Positions 230 to 24,636 of a stretch of DNA of 24,636 bases are shown one piece after another (the first letter of the stretch is position 1; each line of letters starts with the position of its first letter). A program made the translations under genes and the position numbers. The notes beneath the pieces are model-generated. The model was not told the origin of the DNA. It ran no database searches and worked only from the letters and a program-made list of their open reading frames with translations. Source of the stretch: a virus; the IMG/VR virus record IMGVR_UViG_3300042910_000059, positions 1-24,636 of that record. One strand, given 5' to 3'.

Positions 230-1339
230 TCACCTCACGTCCACGGCTATCACGCTTATGCAGCCGCCGTATCCGCCGACAAACAAGCCCACGTTTTTGA
301 CTTCAACGCTTTCAAAAGTGTAGTTCCACGGGAGAATGCCTGTCCCGCTCGCCGTGCTATAGTAGTCTGTGGAGTCTCCGAAGCTGATGAAGCGGGGCCA
401 GCCGAGCTTAACGGTTTTGGTCGCGTCCGCCGTGAGGGGTTCCATGACAAGGTAAAGGGTTGAGCCCTGTGGGAAATCCAGGGTCAGCGGCTGATGGGAG
501 TCTATGAGTATCCATGGGCACATGACAATGTTTAGGACAACCCTCGCGGTTTGGGTTGTCGTAAACCTGTTTGTGGCTTTGACTTCAAGGGTATAAGTCC
601 GATTAGTGTCCATGGCGAAGAAAGTCCGCCCAAAGCATCCCTCGCTGTAGGAGGGGTTCGTGTAGATGGCGATGTAGTCGGTCTGGCGTTCCATCCACGG
701 AAGCCCAACTCCGTCGAGGTAAATCTTGAAGTTCATCACGTCCGAGGTTAATTCCGACTCGCCTGGGTTGACCAGGTAGCTTCCACGCTTGTCCACCATC
801 TCGCAGTAGGCTGTGACTATGCAGGCGTATTGCTTTATCATCCCCGCCGGCGTCCTCCTGCCGTAGAGGGGGCCCAGGTCGAGGGACAGGACGGTCGCGT
901 TCTGCCCGGACCCCACGCTCACAGAGTTGGCGGCCTCTTGGCCCGAAAGGTCTGGAAAGTCGAGGTTGAAGAATGAGAACTCGGATATGTTCACAACTTC
1001 GTTGTTGTTTGGACTGTTGTAGACGGCGGTTTGGAGCGCGAAGCTGTGGTTTCCGGAGCCGAGATACATCAGCAGCCCCCGCTCGGCGCCTGGGCTGAAC
1101 GGAAGCGTCTGATAGACGAGGACCGGGTTGGTGCCGTGCAGAAGCCTCAAGCTGCCCATGGCGTTGCTTCCGCTGCTGTATCCCCTGAACTTCGCGTAGA
1201 CAAGCGTGGGGGTGGCAATGTTCAGGGTTGTGGTTTTCCTGGTTGTCCAGTCGTGGAGGGTTGGGCTTGTGTATAGCGTAGTGTCCTTGTAAAGGGGTCC
1301 CTCGCTTTTGACGTGCCTAACCATTTCGCTCAGCAGCAT
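230..1339 (-). CDS. distal tail / virion structural protein
   Basis: A 369-residue protein directly after the tape measure gene. The stop of the tape measure and this start share one base (TAATG), which indicates translational coupling. The sequence is beta-rich, with many Ser, Thr, Asn, Tyr and Gly residues and alternating hydrophobic strands; there is no signal peptide or membrane segment. In siphovirus gene order the gene after the tape measure encodes the distal tail protein, so a tail-tip role is the best guess. No specific family motif is visible, and an adhesin-like or carbohydrate-binding role is equally possible. Confidence 0.6.
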   Translation of the reverse strand: MLLSEMVRHVKSEGPLYKDTTLYTSPTLHDWTTRKTTTLNIATPTLVYAKFRGYSSGSNAMGSLRLLHGTNPVLVYQTLPFSPGAERGLLMYLGSGNHSFALQTAVYNSPNNNEVVNISEFSFFNLDFPDLSGQEAANSVSVGSGQNATVLSLDLGPLYGRRTPAGMIKQYACIVTAYCEMVDKRGSYLVNPGESELTSDVMNFKIYLDGVGLPWMERQTDYIAIYTNPSYSEGCFGRTFFAMDTNRTYTLEVKATNRFTTTQTARVVLNIVMCPWILIDSHQPLTLDFPQGSTLYLVMEPLTADATKTVKLGWPRFISFGDSTDYYSTASGTGILPWNYTFESVEVKNVGLFVGGYGGCISVIAVDVR

Positions 1340-3423
1340 TAGAAGACGACACCTCCAAACACGCGGATCCGCTTGGTCGGCGCGGCCGCAGACGTGGCTT
1401 CAATGAGCGTGGTTTTCAAGGCTTCCTTCACCTTCTCCACGGCCAACTCAACCGTCCGCCTGTCCGCCGAACCCTCAACGTTGACAAGCGGGGCTGTTAT
1501 GTTGACTGTTACGGGCGCAGGGGCTGGCGGAGGCATAGGCGGGGCCCCAACCGGGGCGGCGGCCCCCGCACGGACCCCGCTTAAGGCTAAAGCCGCGGGC
1601 TTCCCGATTTCGGCGACAAAACTTTTAACGCTTTCAACACCCTTGCTCATGCTCTCCTTGACGGCGCCAACCCACTTGCCGAGGTCTTTTATGCTTGATT
1701 CGACGGCGTTGTGGATGGCGTGGGCGAAACATATGCTTGTTATGAAGTTCCAGACGGCCTGCCCAGCCTGGCTCAGGGCGCTCCCCGCCTGGCTCGCGAA
1801 GTTGCTGAAGGCGTTGCCTGCTGCTTTGGCTGCTCCGCCCACGGTGTCCTGGATGCCCTTCCATGCGTTTGCAACGGCGTTCCAAGCGTTTTGGGCCGCG
1901 CTGCAAATATTGTTCCATATCGAGCCGAGGGTGTCTTCAAGCCAGCGGAAGGCGTTTACAACGGCGTCGCAGAACCCTCTAATGGTGTCTATGAGGGGTG
2001 CGACAACGCTGTTCCATATGCCCACAATGCCTTTACATAGGTCTGTCCAAAGGCTTCCGCCTATAAGCCAGCCGAAAAGCCACTTGAAAGCGTTGTAAAC
2101 GGACTCACAGAACCATTTAACCGCATCCACAACGGGCTTCACAAGGGTGTCCCAAGCCCAGCCAATCCCCTTACACACGGCGTTCCAAACTTCGCCAAGC
2201 TTCTGGGCCACATTCATCCAGAACTGCAGGTTCGCTATGAGCACCATGCGGATGAAGTCCACAATGGGCCGGATGTATTTGTCCCAGAAGCCGCTTATAG
2301 CCGAGCAAATGCCGCCCCATACGTCGCCCAAAGCCTTGAAGACGTTCATCCACAGCCGAATGTTAGCGACCAAGACGGAAACTATGAAGTCTCCAATGGG
2401 CTTGATATAGGTGTTCCAGAAGCCGCTTATGGCCGAGCAGACGCTGTTCCACGCGTCGCCCAGAGCCTTAAAAGCTTCCATCCACAGTCGGATATTGAAG
2501 ACTAGGACGGAAACTATAAAGTCCGCAATGGGCTTGATATAAGTGTTCCAGAAACCGCTTATGGCGCTTGTAACCGCGCCCCAAACGTCTCCGAGGGCTT
2601 TGAAGGCTGCTGCCCACATGTTTATGTTGGCGACCAGGACGGCGACTATGAAGTCGGCCAGGGGCTTCAGGACGTTGTCCCAGAACCATGTTAAAGCCCC
2701 GCAGATGGCGTCTATGGCCGGCTTGAGGAAGTTATAGAGGGCTTGGCCGATCGCGTTGACCGCGTTCCTGAAGGGCTCGCATGTCTGGTAGGCCGTGATC
2801 AAGGCGCCGACGAGCAGCCCGATGGCCATTATGGCTGCCATGATTGGGTTGGCGGCCAGAAAGGCGGTTACCTTGTTAACCATGTCAATGGCTGCGTGGA
2901 AGCTCTGGAAGGCTTTGACGCCGCTGTCAATCATGGTTATTACCGTTGGGACAACGGAGAGGGCGAACTGCATCACCGTCTGGTTCACGTTGTTCTGCAT
3001 AATTTGGGCTCTTTCAGCTGCAAGCTGATACTTTTCCTGGGCGAGGGCGAGGTTTTTGGCTGCTTCTTGGGCTTTCTCGCTTTCAGGGCCGTATTTGGCT
3101 ACAGCTTCGTTGTATTTCCGCTGGGCTTCCTCCAAGGCTTTTTGGGCTACTTCAAGCTGATAGGAGGCTCTCGAAGCAGCATATTGCGCCTTCTCAATCC
3201 TGTCTAAGCCCATGTAGAGGCTGAAGCCTGCTGTCAGAACCCCGCTGAAGCCCGTGGCCAGGTTCCGCGCCGAGGCGACGGCGCTTTCCTGGGCTTTGGC
3301 TACCCGCTCGTTCGCCTCTTCGACGCGCCCCATGGCTTCCGCTGTCTGGTCGCCTAGTTCGCGGACGGCAGCCAAGGCTTCGTCAACCTTGGCTGTTATG
3401 CGCATTTCAAGCTCTTGGCTCAT
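1339..3423 (-). CDS. tail tape measure protein
   Basis: A 694-residue tape measure protein, which sets tail length and helps genome delivery. Residues 1-150 are highly charged and predicted coiled coil (Ala, Glu, Lys, Gln rich). Residues about 187-212 form a long hydrophobic segment. Residues 247 to about 440 hold five units of an exact 44-residue period, each with an FWxxxIKPxxDFIVxVL-type core followed by FKALGDVW; the Trp-Asp/Asn pairs start at 247, 291, 335, 379 and 423. A Gly/Ala-rich region and a Pro/Ala-rich linker (about 615-640) precede the C-terminus. By the usual 0.15 nm per residue the tail would be about 100 nm. It follows the tail chaperone gene directly, the normal siphovirus arrangement. 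The ATG at 3423 abuts the stop of the frameshift product at 3424. Confidence 0.93.
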   Translation of the reverse strand: MSQELEMRITAKVDEALAAVRELGDQTAEAMGRVEEANERVAKAQESAVASARNLATGFSGVLTAGFSLYMGLDRIEKAQYAASRASYQLEVAQKALEEAQRKYNEAVAKYGPESEKAQEAAKNLALAQEKYQLAAERAQIMQNNVNQTVMQFALSVVPTVITMIDSGVKAFQSFHAAIDMVNKVTAFLAANPIMAAIMAIGLLVGALITAYQTCEPFRNAVNAIGQALYNFLKPAIDAICGALTWFWDNVLKPLADFIVAVLVANINMWAAAFKALGDVWGAVTSAISGFWNTYIKPIADFIVSVLVFNIRLWMEAFKALGDAWNSVCSAISGFWNTYIKPIGDFIVSVLVANIRLWMNVFKALGDVWGGICSAISGFWDKYIRPIVDFIRMVLIANLQFWMNVAQKLGEVWNAVCKGIGWAWDTLVKPVVDAVKWFCESVYNAFKWLFGWLIGGSLWTDLCKGIVGIWNSVVAPLIDTIRGFCDAVVNAFRWLEDTLGSIWNNICSAAQNAWNAVANAWKGIQDTVGGAAKAAGNAFSNFASQAGSALSQAGQAVWNFITSICFAHAIHNAVESSIKDLGKWVGAVKESMSKGVESVKSFVAEIGKPAALALSGVRAGAAAPVGAPPMPPPAPAPVTVNITAPLVNVEGSADRRTVELAVEKVKEALKTTLIEATSAAAPTKRIRVFGGVVF
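2104..2685 (-). repeat. 132-bp tandem repeats in tape measure gene
   Basis: About five direct tandem units of 132 bp encode the 44-residue period of the tape measure protein. The middle three units are most alike; on the plus strand, versions of gtgttccagaagccgctta recur at 132-base spacing. Such in-frame repeats can expand or shrink by recombination and thereby change tail length. Confidence 0.85.
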
Positions 3424-3935
3424 TCACCTGCCCCTTCTCCTGTAGAACCAGTTAAGCCAGGAAACGAGAAACTGGAACTGGAAGGGTGTGAGGCTGCCTA
3501 TGTATTCAAGCGGGTAGCCGTATTCGTGGGCGATTAGGCCTATGTGCTGGGCGTTAACATTGGCTCTAACCCAGTCTTCGACGTCCTGCCAACTGTAAAA
3601 CCCATGTCCCTGCTTAAGGCTGTCATAAGTTTAGCTGCGACTTCCAACGGTAGGGCTTTGACGTCCTCGAGGGTTAAGTCCTTGTTCGCCTTATGCAGCA
3701 TCAGCCAAAGAGTCATAACGCCCCGCTCTTCAGGAGTCTTGCACTTGCCGAGCTCAATGCTGTCCGCCAGCGTTAAGACTCCGTATTCGACAACGCCCAA
3801 GCCTTCAACTTCAACCCTGCGAATCTCCCTGCTGCTTTGAATTAAAGCCTTGACGTCGAATTTGGCGGCCTTCGCAGCCTTCTCTTGCTCGTATTGCTCA
3901 AGCTTTTTGGCATATTCCTCCACTTTCCCGCTCAA
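3424..3935 (-). CDS. tail assembly chaperone, long form by -1 frameshift
   Basis: This is the gpG-T-type fusion predicted from a -1 ribosomal frameshift. The zero frame is read from TTG at 3935 to the slippery heptamer GGGTTTT (plus-strand 3597-3603, phased G GGT TTT). A slip of one base enters a frame that continues 57 codons to a TGA at 3424, directly before the tape measure ATG. The product would be 170 residues: 113 from the first frame and 57 from the second (beginning YSWQDVEDWV, ending FYRRRGR). The second frame has no start of its own and fills what would otherwise be a 116-base gap. In dsDNA tailed phages the same arrangement makes the two tail chaperones gpG and gpGT that coat the tape measure. 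Frameshifting here is predicted, not shown. Confidence 0.8.
3540..3935 (-). CDS. tail assembly chaperone, short form (gpG-like)
   Basis: A 131-residue soluble protein, Lys/Glu-rich at the N-terminus and helical in the middle. It lies between the tail tube genes and the tape measure, the place of the tail assembly chaperone. It starts with TTG at 3935; the choice is supported by an almost perfect Shine-Dalgarno sequence GGGAGGTGAT seven bases upstream. The last 18 codons overlap the -1 frame that encodes the long form. No family motif is visible; the call rests on position, size and the slippery heptamer. Confidence 0.8.
   Translation of the reverse strand: MSGKVEEYAKKLEQYEQEKAAKAAKFDVKALIQSSREIRRVEVEGLGVVEYGVLTLADSIELGKCKTPEERGVMTLWLMLHKANKDLTLEDVKALPLEVAAKLMTALSRDMGFTVGRTSKTGLEPMLTPST
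3597..3603 (-). promoter_or_regulatory. -1 frameshift slippery heptamer GGGTTTT
   Basis: The heptamer fits the X XXY YYZ rule in the correct phase (zero-frame codons GGT TTT become GGG TTT). It lies 54 bases before the end of the zero frame and opens the frame that runs exactly to the tape measure gene. I did not identify a clear downstream stem-loop or pseudoknot by eye. Confidence 0.75.
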
Positions 3936-4302: not shown

Positions 4303-5019
4303 CTATGGTTGTGTCTCAAACAGTATGTTGTCGCCTTCGCCTTCCAGGCTTTCGGCTATCACGCCGTCCTGCTCTATGCTTTGCTCCCAGCTGTTTAACG
4401 TGACGTTTCTGAGCGTTATTAGCGGTTTGCCGGATCCCCATCCGTCCGGAGCTATCATGATGTCGAACTTTTCGCCGGCGAGGATTTTGTTGGCGAATTT
4501 GCTGCTCACATACAGCAGGTCAATGCTGACCTTGAAGGTTTTGTTTCCGCTTGAAAGGACGGCGGGCTTATCGCTTCCAAACACGTATTCCTTGACCAAG
4601 TCCACGTCAACGCTTGCGCTGACTGTCTTGGCGTAGCCTATGAGAAGCCTCTCCGTCATGCCCGAGAAAGTCGCGGTTCCGGATGTTGAACCGCTTGTCG
4701 CCCTCACGCCGAACCGGAAGCTGTAAGCGTTGTCCGGCGCCGTGTATTCGTCGGTCCTCGTCTCAACGGTGTTAGGCGTCAAGTTCACAGTGTTTCTGCT
4801 CAGCTCGGAGCCGGCGCTGTTCAGCCAGCTGAAAACTGCCTGCAGGGCGGTTATGTTAGCGTTGCTTATGTATGTGTATGTGACTCGGGCTGTTTCTCCG
4901 GGGTCAACGCGCTCAGCCGGCGTGAACGCTTCGCTTGTGCTGTTTGGGGGCGGCGAAACGCTGATCGTTAAAGGGTAAAGTGTCCGGTAAAGCAGCGCGT
5001 TTCTGCCTAGAATCGGCAT
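4303..5019 (-). CDS. long tail tube protein paralogue with Ig-like insertion
   Basis: A 238-residue paralogue of the next upstream gene. Both begin MPILGR and share a C-terminal tube domain, with matching stretches such as SVDVDLVKEY / SIDVDLIKEY, SGNKTFKVSI / SGNKSFKVSI and SIEQDGV. In the long form about 110 residues (roughly 14-124) are inserted after the N-terminal arm. The insert is Thr/Ser/Asn-rich and beta-stranded with no Cys, as expected of an Ig-like or FN3-like domain of the kind that decorates tail tubes. The ATG at 5019 follows an AGGAG site. It may be a minor tube component carrying surface domains, or a divergent second tail tube protein. Confidence 0.8.
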   Translation of the reverse strand: MPILGRNALLYRTLYPLTISVSPPPNSTSEAFTPAERVDPGETARVTYTYISNANITALQAVFSWLNSAGSELSRNTVNLTPNTVETRTDEYTAPDNAYSFRFGVRATSGSTSGTATFSGMTERLLIGYAKTVSASVDVDLVKEYVFGSDKPAVLSSGNKTFKVSIDLLYVSSKFANKILAGEKFDIMIAPDGWGSGKPLITLRNVTLNSWEQSIEQDGVIAESLEGEGDNILFETQP

Positions 5020-5485: not shown

Positions 5486-5851
5486 TTACAAGCTTTCCCA
5501 AGCCTTGCTGATGGCTTCCTGCATGGCGAAAGTTAGGAGAGGCATGCACTCGTTTATCGCCCGGGTTAGGAAATACCTGGGCGCAATATAGCGGGTTCCA
5601 AACTCCTGGAATATGGCGTAATAAACGTATGCGCCGACGCGGAGAACCAGGTCGCGGGTTATCGTGTGATATATGCTTGCCCGAAGGGCTCCGGTCCTAA
5701 CAGGCGCGTAAGCCCTTGCCCGGACAACAATCTGCTGGCCTATTTCACCCAAAACCTCGGCAAACCTGTCCCTTAAACCCTCGCTCATCTGCTTGAGGGC
5801 TTCGGCGAAAGCCTCAACCTCTGAAGGGTCAATTTGGATTTTAACAGTCAC
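5486..5851 (-). CDS. HK97 gp10-like tail completion protein
   Basis: A protein of 121 residues of the HK97 gp10-like head-tail joining/tail completion family. Recognisable features are the APVRTGALRASI motif at about residues 49-60, followed by a strand pair and FGTRYIAPRYFLTRAI at about 86-101; these are typical of this family. The start is GTG at 5851, overlapping the previous TGA (GTGA), so translation is coupled. In related virions these proteins act at the interface between the portal-connector and the tail. Confidence 0.9.
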   Translation of the reverse strand: MTVKIQIDPSEVEAFAEALKQMSEGLRDRFAEVLGEIGQQIVVRARAYAPVRTGALRASIYHTITRDLVLRVGAYVYYAIFQEFGTRYIAPRYFLTRAINECMPLLTFAMQEAISKAWESL

Positions 5852-8601: not shown

Positions 8602-8997
8602 CTAATACACGTGCGGGTTAACAGCCACCAGTATTACGTCGCCAGCAGCTGATGCGGCTTCCAAGGCATAGCCTAAAGCCCTGTTTCCGGCCTGTAGCGA
8701 CCGCCACAGCTCTTGCCGAAGAGTCTGAGCCGACAACGGCGCCGGCTGAGACTGGCTCCGCCGGCGGTCACGTAAACTATTGGGCAGCCCATGATGACGG
8801 GAACCTTTGAGCCTGCAGAGGCGCTTCCGGCAGCAACGCCTATAACCGGCGTCCGTTGCACCAGCAGCGGGGCCAACAGTCATTGAACCCGTCACTTTGA
8901 CAAGCTGGCCTTTCGTTACGGCTGCGCTTGCAGTGAAGGTGACTATGTCTCCGGGTAGGCTGAATATGTTTCCTGGAACACGTGCTTCAAAAGACAT
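8602..8997 (-). pseudogene. capsid decoration protein, three frame breaks
   Basis: The frame from ATG 8997 to TAG 8602 is open but its middle (Arg/Cys-rich) is plainly out of frame. A normal decoration protein of about 130 residues (small, Ala/Gly/Val-rich, DUF2190-like) appears if one extra base is removed near 8845-8849, one near 8753-8758 and one near 8688-8692. The pieces are a start SFEARVPGNIFSLPGD, then VIGVAAGSASAGSKVPVIMG, then VSAGAVVGSDSSARAVAVAT, then NRALGYALEAASAAGD. The three single-base insertions return to the starting frame. A GAGGGGTGA site precedes the start. The gene lies directly before the capsid gene, as decoration genes usually do. Confidence 0.75.
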
Positions 8998-16005: not shown

Positions 16006-16360
16006 GCTTTGCTTCGCTTCGCTCTGCTTGGCTTCGCTCAGCTAAGCTAAGCTGCGCTTTGCTTGGTTCAGCTTCGCTATGCTGGGCTCCGCTTTGCTTA
16101 GCTGCGCTTTGCTTTGCTCAGCTCTACTCGGCTAGGCTTGGCTATGCTTTGCTGGGCTATGCTTCGCTTCGCTAGGCTCAGCTTAGCTGCGCTTTGCTTA
16201 GCTCGGCTAGGCTCCGCTTTGCTTTGCTAAGCTTCGCTATGCTTTGCTTTGCTTTGCTAAGCTAAGCTAAGCTAAGCTATGCTTCGCTCGGCTAAGCTGG
16301 GCTCCGCTCTACTCAGCTAAGCTCTGCTATGCTGCGCTACGCTAAGCTAAACTAAACTCA
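16006..16360. repeat. degenerate pentanucleotide array (GCTNN)69
   Basis: From 16006 to 16350 the plus strand is 69 consecutive 5-base units, of which 66 begin GCT; the exceptions are gttca (16066), actcg (16126) and actca (16311). Two decayed units (actaa, actca) follow to 16360. There is not one insertion or deletion in phase. The last two bases vary widely: TT 12, AA 11, TC 8, AT 6, CA 5, CT 4, GC 4, six others 3 each, AC 1, while GA and GT never occur. The period is not a multiple of three and all frames meet stops, so it is not coding, except that the last codons and stop of the RAMP-like gene lie in it. It fills the only gene-free stretch over 300 bases (15973-16341). Confidence 0.97.
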
Positions 16361-18842: not shown

Positions 18843-19017
18843 CTTCCCCCCGTAGCTCGAGGATCCTACGGATAATGATTGCTGTTTCGTCGAGCTTCTT
18901 GAGGAGGCTCTTAAGCTGCTTCGTTAGGACGATCCTTTCCCCGTAAATCGGACATGTTGGATTCTGCTCGCACCTCTGGCACGGTTCATCCGATTTGGCG
19001 CACCTAATTTCCCTCAA
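18817..19017 (-). CDS. small zinc-binding coiled-coil protein
   Basis: A 66-residue protein from TTG 19017, overlapping the end of the cytosine methyltransferase by 14 bases. The N-terminus has C-x6-CxxC-x5-C (CAKSDEPCQRCEQNPTC), a likely zinc site; the rest is a Leu/Lys/Glu-rich helix that could dimerise. There is no good ribosome site, so translation probably depends on coupling. Function unknown. Confidence 0.58.
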   Translation of the reverse strand: MREIRCAKSDEPCQRCEQNPTCPIYGERIVLTKQLKSLLKKLDETAIIIRRILELRGEDESVQPRV

Positions 19018-20119
19018 GTTGCATCACTTCCGTTAACCTCCTACCGAGAAACTCTACAACGTTTACCGTGACTGCGTTTCCTAGTAGCTTGTAGCGTCGC
19101 GTATCTGAAAGCTCCACGACTTTGCCGCCGCGCGTTAGCCCCCATCTTGTCCAGTCGTCCGGGAAACCTTGCAGCCTCTCACACTCCCTTGGGGTTAACC
19201 TTCTAATTCTCAAGTTAGCGCGAATCCAAACAAAGGGATCCCACGAGCTTCGGAGGCAGGGGCTTAAACCAGAAACCTCAACAACTCTACCAGCGTGCCC
19301 TCTAGAGGGGTAAACGTAACCACATACAACAATGCCTCTACGCTCTACGGTATTTAGGGAGCAAACCACTCCATCCACCTTTAACCTACGCCCCCACTTC
19401 CACTTCTCAATCCTTGAGACGTCGTCGATCGGGATAACTTGCCTAAATCGTGTTCCATAACCGCGACTAATAGTTCCCTTGTTTCCTCCTCCGATAGGAA
19501 ATATTTGTCGGGAACTTGTTCCTCTAAGATGTCCAACAATGAACACTCTCTCCCTATTCTGGGGAACCCCGAAATACCTGCTGTTAAGCACCTGCCATTC
19601 GACATCATACCCCAAACCATCCAGCGCTTGAAGGATTCTGGCAAAGGTTCTTCCCTTGTCGTTGCTAAGGAGTCCCTTGACGTTTTCCAGCAGTAATAAT
19701 GGAGGTTTTTTAGTACTCGCAACTCTGGTAATATCGCAGAATAGCGTTCCACGAGCGTCCTCGAAACCTTTCCGTTTCCCTGCAATTGAGAAACTTTGGC
19801 AAGGAAATCCAGCAGTGAGAAGCGTGTGGTCTGGGATTGTTGAGGCATCCATCTGTCTAATGTCTCCCTCGACGAGCTCTCCGGCTCCGAAGCGGTAACG
19901 GTAAACCATGCAGGCATATTTGTCGATGTCGTTTGCCCAGACGCACCTCCAACCACTCCGTTCGAGTCCAAGCCTAAACCCTCCGATGCCACAGAACATT
20001 TCGATAAACGTTAGCTCCGTTAATCTCCACCCCTTTGATTCATTTTGCCCTCTTGGTGTATTTTTTCGAGTTGTCTTCCGCATTCTTCGCATAGTAAGCC
20101 CCAAGAGCCGTCTAGCCAT
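19004..20119 (-). CDS. DNA cytosine-5 methyltransferase
   Basis: A C5-cytosine methyltransferase of up to 371 residues. Motif I MFCGIGGFRLGLE at about 41-53, motif IV GFPCQSFS with the catalytic Cys at about 109-116, motif VI LLENVKG, motif VIII QNRERVFIVG, a variable target-recognition region, then TPRECERLQGFPDDW (motif IX) and LLGNAV (motif X) are all present. The long frame overlaps the helicase gene by 100 bases; the first 35 or so residues may not be real, and the true start may lie nearer 20020, where GGGGTGGAG could serve as ribosome site. It probably protects viral DNA from host restriction. No partner restriction enzyme is visible. Target site unknown. Confidence 0.95.
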   Translation of the reverse strand: MARRLLGLTMRRMRKTTRKNTPRGQNESKGWRLTELTFIEMFCGIGGFRLGLERSGWRCVWANDIDKYACMVYRYRFGAGELVEGDIRQMDASTIPDHTLLTAGFPCQSFSIAGKRKGFEDARGTLFCDITRVASTKKPPLLLLENVKGLLSNDKGRTFARILQALDGLGYDVEWQVLNSRYFGVPQNRERVFIVGHLRGTSSRQIFPIGGGNKGTISRGYGTRFRQVIPIDDVSRIEKWKWGRRLKVDGVVCSLNTVERRGIVVCGYVYPSRGHAGRVVEVSGLSPCLRSSWDPFVWIRANLRIRRLTPRECERLQGFPDDWTRWGLTRGGKVVELSDTRRYKLLGNAVTVNVVEFLGRRLTEVMQLEGN

Positions 20120-23587: not shown

Positions 23588-23747
23588 CGAGAACCCTCCT
23601 TTCCAGTTTTTCCAGCCTTTTCTTCCAGTCTAAATGCGCCCGCCTCATCCATTTTTCAACGGGCTGGTCGTAAACGCCGGACTTAGGGTTGAATGTGCAC
23701 AGGGCCCCGTCCGGCTGCCGATGGTGGGCTAAAACGGTTTTTTTCAA
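23562..23747 (-). CDS. hypothetical protein overlapping integrase end
   Basis: A 61-residue basic protein from TTG 23747, chosen for GGGAGGTGG eight bases upstream; a longer frame to 23807 lacks such a site. It starts LKKTVLAHHRQPDGALCTF, with VEKWMRRAHLDWKKRLEKLERRV as a probable helix. It overlaps the integrase 3' end by 65 bases in another frame. Function unknown; excision or regulation is possible given position. Confidence 0.5.
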   Translation of the reverse strand: MKKTVLAHHRQPDGALCTFNPKSGVYDQPVEKWMRRAHLDWKKRLEKLERRVLDAAGKSVE

Positions 23748-24636
23748 CTGAAACCACCTCCCTTTTATATCGGCAGCCGGTGGCCCAGACGGGCATTTGG
23801 TCCACAAGCCTGCAGATTGGAAGGTTGCCGCATGTCCGGCAAACTTCTGGAAGGGTTGGCTGCGTCACCTGGGTTTGCGGGGGCTGCTTTGGCGCATAAG
23901 CCTCGTCCAATATTGGCCCGCTTTGAAGCTTCTGATATTCGCCCTGCAAATCTTCAAAATAGACGAGGCGGCTTAAGTAGAACTGGGTGTAGGCGAGGCT
24001 TTTATGGCGGAGTATTCGCCTAAGAAGTTCAAGGCTTCCGCCCCGCCTATGCCATTCAGCTGCGAAAAAGTGCCTCAGAAGCCTTGGAGTGAAGCCTTTT
24101 ACGCCCGCAGCCTCAGCGATCCTTTTCACTCGAACCTCAACTGTTCCAACCCTTAGAGGCAAACCGGCTTTAGCGTGGCTCCAGCTTCTGCTGTAAACGT
24201 CCCGCGTAAACACGTAGCCTTCACGGCGGGATCCAACAAGGTCCTGAATAAGCTGAAGCGTTACGGCGTCAAGGGGCAGCGGATACAATCTTTTCTTCTT
24301 GCTGTCCAAAACCAGGAAAGTTCTCTCTTGAAAGTTTATGTCTTCAACGCGGAGGCTGCATATTTCGCCTGTTCTCAAGCCGATTTTCATTGGAAGCCGG
24401 ATAAGCAGGTAGTCGCGGAGGCAACAGTGCTGCCGGGCGTAGTCGTGGACTTTTAGAACGTCCGCTCGGCGAATAATGATGGCGTCAGCTTGCCAACAGT
24501 ATTTTCGCCCGCCGTTCGTCAAGGTAAAAGTTACCTTGGCGCGGATCCTCCATTTAAGCAAGGCGACTGATTGGACGCCCCGGCCTGTGGAGAGAGTTGA
24601 ATTAAAGTGAAATCTAGATTTGCAATCCTTATTCAA
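23683..24636 (-). CDS. int: tyrosine recombinase (integrase), start at edge
   Basis: A tyrosine recombinase of at least 317 residues; the frame reaches the window edge at a TTG, so it may be longer. The catalytic domain shows Arg I in GLRTGEICSL (R88), a beta-hairpin Lys in LDSKKKRLYPL, box II as RLLRHFFA (R188), His/Lys in ILRHKSLAYTQ (H211) and the nucleophile Tyr220 in QFYLSRL. The first His of the usual HxxR is Arg185 here. The N-terminal core-binding domain is short or divergent. A Pro/Gln linker and a Cys cluster (CRTCGNLPIC ... GC, about residues 266-288) form an added C-terminal zinc site. It would integrate the virus into the host chromosome; no attachment site is visible within the window. 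Confidence 0.9.
   Translation of the reverse strand: MNKDCKSRFHFNSTLSTGRGVQSVALLKWRIRAKVTFTLTNGGRKYCWQADAIIIRRADVLKVHDYARQHCCLRDYLLIRLPMKIGLRTGEICSLRVEDINFQERTFLVLDSKKKRLYPLPLDAVTLQLIQDLVGSRREGYVFTRDVYSRSWSHAKAGLPLRVGTVEVRVKRIAEAAGVKGFTPRLLRHFFAAEWHRRGGSLELLRRILRHKSLAYTQFYLSRLVYFEDLQGEYQKLQSGPILDEAYAPKQPPQTQVTQPTLPEVCRTCGNLPICRLVDQMPVWATGCRYKREVVSVEKNRFSPPSAAGRGPVHIQP

Follow-up and report, generated by a model that had tools for sequence, protein, structure and literature searches.

Frameshifting in tail assembly chaperones of the lambda type is textbook knowledge for phages. Here, we describe a predicted case in the IMG/VR virus record IMGVR_UViG_3300042910_000059, whose 24,636 bases were analyzed as a whole (hereafter, the window) and in which two overlapping reading frames, referred to as G and T, precede the tape measure gene. 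The closest described systems are lambda gpG/gpGT, with the site G_GGA_AAG, and HK97 gp13/gp14, in which, as here, a small zero-frame open reading frame (ORF) is followed by a −1 ORF beside the tape measure gene. In both cases the heptamer is near the zero-frame stop, the lambda GGGAAAG lying 18 nucleotides (nt) before it and the present one farther away, at 54 nt; lambda T ends over the start of H, similar to the junction of T and the tape measure gene here, and HK97 gp13 is resembled by the structural model of G. The differences are that lambda T has 144 amino acids (aa), whereas T here has 57, that neither lambda nor HK97 shows detectable sequence homology to G, and that the present shift site is of the U type (G_GGU_UUU or U_UUU_UUN) in a virus with a probably archaeal host.

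In archaea, a −1 frameshift between g and t has also been predicted for the haloarchaeal viruses HVTV-1 and HCTV-1, -2, and -5 (PMC5009743, PMC8211752), and a tail chaperone site, G_GGA_AAT, for Hardycor1 (PMC7911831). The original prediction for our locus held that it would be a rare archaeal case if the host were archaeal. The host part has gained support from related proviruses, but since the haloarchaeal predictions came earlier, the case is not the first. These earlier viral cases come from a small number of haloviruses and are predictions; the hosts of haloarchaeal viruses are Halobacteria, whereas those here are Bathyarchaeia, and the comparative support is much deeper here. The only archaeal −1 frameshift with direct experimental proof is that of Saccharolobus solfataricus fucA1, at A_AAA_AAT on archaeal ribosomes (PMC8211752), which, unlike the present one, occurs at an A-type site in a cellular gene for an unrelated protein. 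Head-tailed viruses (PMC10848311) and tailed proviruses (PMC11705971) have been described for Bathyarchaeia, the host class considered here. Tail assembly chaperone genes are mentioned for the latter (PMC11705971), and the word “frameshift” is absent from both papers. Our literature search, which left out most subscription papers, found no report of a tail chaperone frameshift in Bathyarchaeia viruses. The lambda-type G/GT shift is known from phages and was already predicted for haloarchaeal viruses; the novelty lies in the group of hosts, the U-type site, and the support gained by comparison.

Our best reading, to which we assign a probability of about 0.93, is that the locus is a lambda-type G/GT tail assembly chaperone, produced by −1 frameshifting, of a tailed Bathyarchaeia virus, as judged from sequence alone. 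The virion genes lie on the minus strand, and the elements of the locus are as follows.

3949-3941, minus strand: Shine-Dalgarno sequence GGAGGTGAT upstream of the TTG start of G, read directly from the sequence
3935-3540, minus strand: zero-frame ORF G, TTG start, TAG stop, 131 aa
3603-3597, minus strand: slippery heptamer G_GGT_TTT, in X XXY YYZ phase inside G
3597-3424, minus strand: −1 frame ORF, the T domain, 57 sense codons (3597-3427) plus TGA (3426-3424)

The codons around the heptamer are ATG GGT TTT ACA, and the GGGTTTT reported in the original prediction is indeed exactly in phase on the minus strand, 54 nt before the stop of G. Read from 3597, the −1 frame translates as YSWQDVEDWVRANVNAQHIGLIAHEYGYPLEYIGSLTPFQFQFLVSWLNWFYRRRGR and then reaches the TGA at 3426-3424, which abuts the tape measure ATG at 3423, so that the 57 codons and the touching stop are likewise as first described. 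The predicted G-T product has 113 + 57 = 170 aa. In the main genes of the window, an in-phase XXXYYYZ occurs at 16 of 4,031 codon sites, 7 of them with Y = A or T (about 0.2%), and one in-phase heptamer inside the overlap is a few-percent chance event and alone weak evidence. Alternatively, the heptamer could be there by chance, or the locus could be one true ORF broken by a sequencing or assembly frameshift, or a decayed pseudogene. That such heptamers are not rare would speak for this view, as would what looks like a compensated indel elsewhere in the window (gene 8602-8997). The comparison with relatives is, however, decisive.

To this end, relatives were collected through T alone, which avoids picking loci by their frame relation. 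Since the wide-diversity alignments of T and G were too variable for pattern search, this T-first search used only the narrower T alignment A1. After removal of duplicates, it gave 72 distinct IMG/VR loci, some on contigs common to the set found through G. In each of the 72, T is overlapped from upstream by an ORF of 90 aa or more from which a −1 shift leads into T, and each has an in-phase XXXYYYZ site, with Y = T in 71. A fusion of T to G in the zero frame, which the original prediction named as grounds for rejection, was found in none of the 72 (the longest T-frame ORF has 109 codons).

The same loci bear on whether T could be translated on its own, by ribosomes that either initiate independently or re-initiate once the zero-frame stop has been reached. 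The T frame overlaps the end of G and is followed by a gene under translational coupling, a layout that is common in operons and would suit a separate T. However, 67 of the 72 loci have no ATG, GTG, or TTG in the T frame ahead of the conserved domain; of the five that do, most have a single one, about 110-120 nt upstream. Initiation has no room in three loci, where the T frame contains a stop 6 nt ahead of the first codon read after the slip. Internal initiation of T was thus rejected for want of start codons, and the in-phase slippery site would go unexplained if T initiated separately; we consider a separate T very improbable.

The relatives found through G show the same organization as those found through T. 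Among 15 IMG/VR loci with close G homologues, 13 have G_GGT_TTT in phase, and the site of the remaining two (L014 and L015) is T_TTT_TTA, placed three bases farther on. None of the 15 has lost the −1 ORF, that of L009 being cut by the contig end. More distant loci, collected through the portal gene and through genome searches, share the frame relation, with G_GGT_TTT, T_TTT_TTA/G/T, or A_AAT_TTT as sites. When G was clustered at 80% identity, 19 of the 20 clusters had an in-phase site and T; a very weak G match, L109 (E 1e-7; C_CCT_TTC, 57-aa −1 frame), was excluded from the clusters. Across both searches (72/72 T-first loci, 19/20 G clusters), the G-T arrangement appears far beyond chance. 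The check on relatives called for by the original prediction was thus passed, in that both frames and an in-phase heptamer are kept, with the correction that the exact GGGTTTT is not the conserved feature, since most relatives use T_TTT_TTN. In most relatives, T ends at or over the tape measure start.

Selection on the two frames was estimated from the window and five colinear relatives. The ratio of nonsynonymous to synonymous substitution rates (dN/dS) of G in frame 0 was 0.10, i.e., purifying. Downstream of the site, where the frames overlap, it was 0.84 in frame 0 versus 0.15 in frame −1; for T past the zero-frame stop, frame −1 gave 0.10, and the other two frames, in which stops occur, gave 2.0 and 1.1. 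Selection therefore acts on frame 0 up to the slippery site and on frame −1 beyond it. Codon choice was counted at the site itself with one member per G cluster: phenylalanine within the site is always TTT (23/23, compared with 35/73 elsewhere; P = 5e-8), and leucine is always TTA or TTG (13/13, compared with 97/280 elsewhere; P = 1e-6). This fixed synonymous choice indicates that the site is conserved beyond protein-level constraint. Altogether, the downstream frame is coding and, in 67 of the 72 loci, has no start codon of its own. The same −1 relation in 72 distinct loci, many assemblies, and Bathyarchaeia genomes, with purifying selection on both frames, refutes the chance, assembly-error, or pseudogene reading as far as sequence can and leaves it the least probable of the alternatives considered. 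Thus, the proposal of a −1 frameshift in a chaperone of lambda-like layout is supported by the frames, the sites, and the selection seen in relatives.

The form of the site varies within the family. The commonest is U_UUU_UUN, three bases downstream of the G_GGU_UUU position, and often (L010-L013, L016, L034, L068, L097, L101, and L113) the two overlap in tandem as G_GGU_UUU + U_UUU_UUA/G. In the window clade, ACA replaces the UUA codon, which implies that this clade, and no other, relies on G_GGU_UUU alone; it looks as though a tandem site has lost its downstream heptamer here.

The T run at the site, among the T-first loci, is T6 in 43, T7 in 20, T8 in 1, and T4 in 7 (the window and its clade). 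Runs of 6-8 in most relatives would be compatible with transcriptional slippage, in which the polymerase adds or drops a U on the run and part of the mRNA fuses G and T. A run of four is generally too short for polymerase slippage, however, and the seven loci that have only T4 keep the −1 frame nonetheless, which makes this mechanism unlikely. Moreover, the tandem or alternating sites G_GGT_TTT, T_TTT_TTN, and A_AAT_TTT obey codon phase, which transcriptional slippage would not require. We therefore judge it improbable, if the least improbable of the three alternatives to a −1 frameshift during translation. A review counts G_GGU_UUU among the heptamers that shift most readily on mammalian ribosomes (PMC5009743).

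The identity of the product as a chaperone is supported by position, layout, and a modest structural similarity. The neighboring genes are listed below.

1339-3423, minus strand: tape measure gene (PHROG phrog_58, tail length tape measure protein, E 5e-35)
4303-5019, minus strand: probable major tail (tube) protein gene, an upstream neighbor in the tail module (weak phrog_88 major tail protein match, E 0.0024, and gene order)
5486-5851, minus strand: HK97-gp10-like neck or tail completion gene (phrog_5, E 5.8e-19; Pfam HK97-gp10_like, E 1.3e-8)

The HK97-gp10-like gene nearby places the G-T locus in the tail module, where, as in lambda, it lies directly before the tape measure gene. An AlphaFold2 model of G, built from 39 sequences, has a mean predicted local distance difference test score (pLDDT) of 78 and consists of two helices, a beta hairpin, and further helices; residues 114-131, all after the shift site, have pLDDT < 50 and are disordered in the model. 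With Foldseek alone, G had no significant match in the PDB, and the HK97 tail assembly chaperone 2ob9 came first only after realignment, followed by two uncharacterized proteins. Many of the weak viral Foldseek matches of G are named tail assembly chaperones. T alone is modeled as a helical domain with pLDDT 94, and a structure search with it gave no significant match. The −1 domain of Hardycor1 gave a short hhalign match to T (P = 1e-4 over 30 columns), which is suggestive. Weak family matches, such as one to Uteroglobin (E 0.0038, below its cut-off), were set aside as spurious.

The host group is indicated by related proviruses. A portal profile scan of 84,980 species genomes found only two relatives, both in Bathyarchaeota metagenome-assembled genomes (MAGs) and one of them in a 309-kb contig, and among 256 Bathyarchaeia-class genomes, G was found in 8 and the portal in 7. 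Two copies of G sit in one 2,202,057-base contig of a Bathyarchaeia-class genome; around one of these copies are capsid, tail, and terminase genes, and G-T precedes the tape measure gene. A 2.73-Mb contig holds a capsid gene with 70% DNA identity to that of the window. These proviruses provide good support for an archaeal host of the virus family.

A related provirus in a Bathyarchaeota MAG (L086, JAOZHX010000022.1, 19359-19885) has a different tail module and an unrelated chaperone. It carries A_AAA_AAC at 19694, and its 61-aa −1 extension matches the tail assembly chaperone family phrog_9001 (E 3e-9), which makes it a predicted second, independent −1 site in a Bathyarchaeia provirus.

Several observations weigh against our reading. 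The match of G to 2ob9 is modest (Z 5.9 over 94 residues, root-mean-square deviation 5.4), no curated PHROG or Pfam family matched G or T, and hhalign comparisons of the profiles with lambda G and HK97 gp13 were not significant, although known tail chaperones of the lambda G/GT kind also lack mutual sequence similarity (PMC5009743). One T-first locus, L205, has T_TTC_CCT as its sole in-phase site. L106 is the sole G relative without T, its site being degraded to GCT GGG TTT CTA CCA. In L106 / L134 (G127 contig C130), the end of G is where the tape measure begins, and the heptamer and the T domain of L106 appear to have been lost together, as a natural co-loss. No stimulatory RNA structure was found among nested secondary structures: the window gave no signal (z −0.14), 13 aligned close relatives contained no structure with covariation support, and 19 diverse loci had mean stem-loop z values of 0.13, 0.21, and −0.11 for 40, 60, and 90 nt. 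In the same 19 loci, no Shine-Dalgarno-like match longer than 4 nt was found as an upstream or internal stimulator. Given neither structure nor internal Shine-Dalgarno sequence, the shift efficiency could be low. Finally, the first half of the window, compared with the 256 Bathyarchaeia-class genomes for spacers of clustered regularly interspaced short palindromic repeats (CRISPR), gave homologous genes and no clear spacer match, and neither integration nor a spacer links the window itself directly to a host.

As for the mechanism, we infer that the shift is ribosomal; its efficiency and the chaperone roles are likewise inferred, the G to G-T ratio and the binding partners of G and T being taken from the lambda model (PMC5009743). 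Most ribosomes would stop at the 131-aa G, and a fraction, with tRNAs on GGU and UUU, would slip back one base at G_GGU_UUU to give the 170-aa G-T with its 57-aa helical T. By analogy with lambda, G would coat the tape measure protein, the rarer G-T would recruit the major tail protein through T, and the slip frequency would set the ratio of G to G-T. Slipped ribosomes would terminate exactly at the tape measure start codon. Because T stops at or over that start, only slipped ribosomes would terminate there, and tape measure synthesis is possibly coupled to the slip. At somewhat less than even odds, the site may be an ancient, class-wide archaeal element, i.e., a bare, structure-free U-type site read by tRNA-Phe (often G_GGU_UUU_UUR, two overlapping heptamers), with termination at the tape measure start coupling the synthesis of G-T and the tape measure. 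Because U-type sites resemble the most slippery ones on eukaryotic ribosomes, archaeal ribosomes or a wyosine-type modification of tRNA-Phe may, on this view, favor them.

Other features of the window are noted here. Within the tape measure gene, 2252-2667 holds about three tandem repeats of 132 bp (44-aa units, ..GFWNTYIKPI.DFIVSVLV.NIRLWM..), which fits the expectation for tail-length variation. In a small gene of the capsid region (8602-8997), both ends are in frame and the middle third is in another frame; the window's net 3 extra bases are missing from nine aligned relatives, and those that were translated read straight through, so that the oddity looks like compensating indels or an assembly error in the window. 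An intergenic 350-bp array of degenerate 5-bp units (GCTTT/GCTAA) lies at 16006-16355. At 19004-20119 lies a probable cytosine-5 DNA methyltransferase, identified solely by reading its sequence, and at 23683-24636 a tyrosine integrase (Phage_integrase, E 1.8e-21), which runs off the contig end; the two are consistent with a temperate virus.

On this reading, the G/GT logic of tail assembly would reach the viruses of Bathyarchaeia, and T is a gene half likely overlooked by the automatic annotation of these viruses. Dozens of diverse archaeal shift sites, varied by natural mutation and with both frames under strong selection, are available in this family. With so many natural sites, the rules of archaeal −1 slippage, i.e., the heptamers used, the need for structure, and the role of tRNA-Phe, become directly testable.
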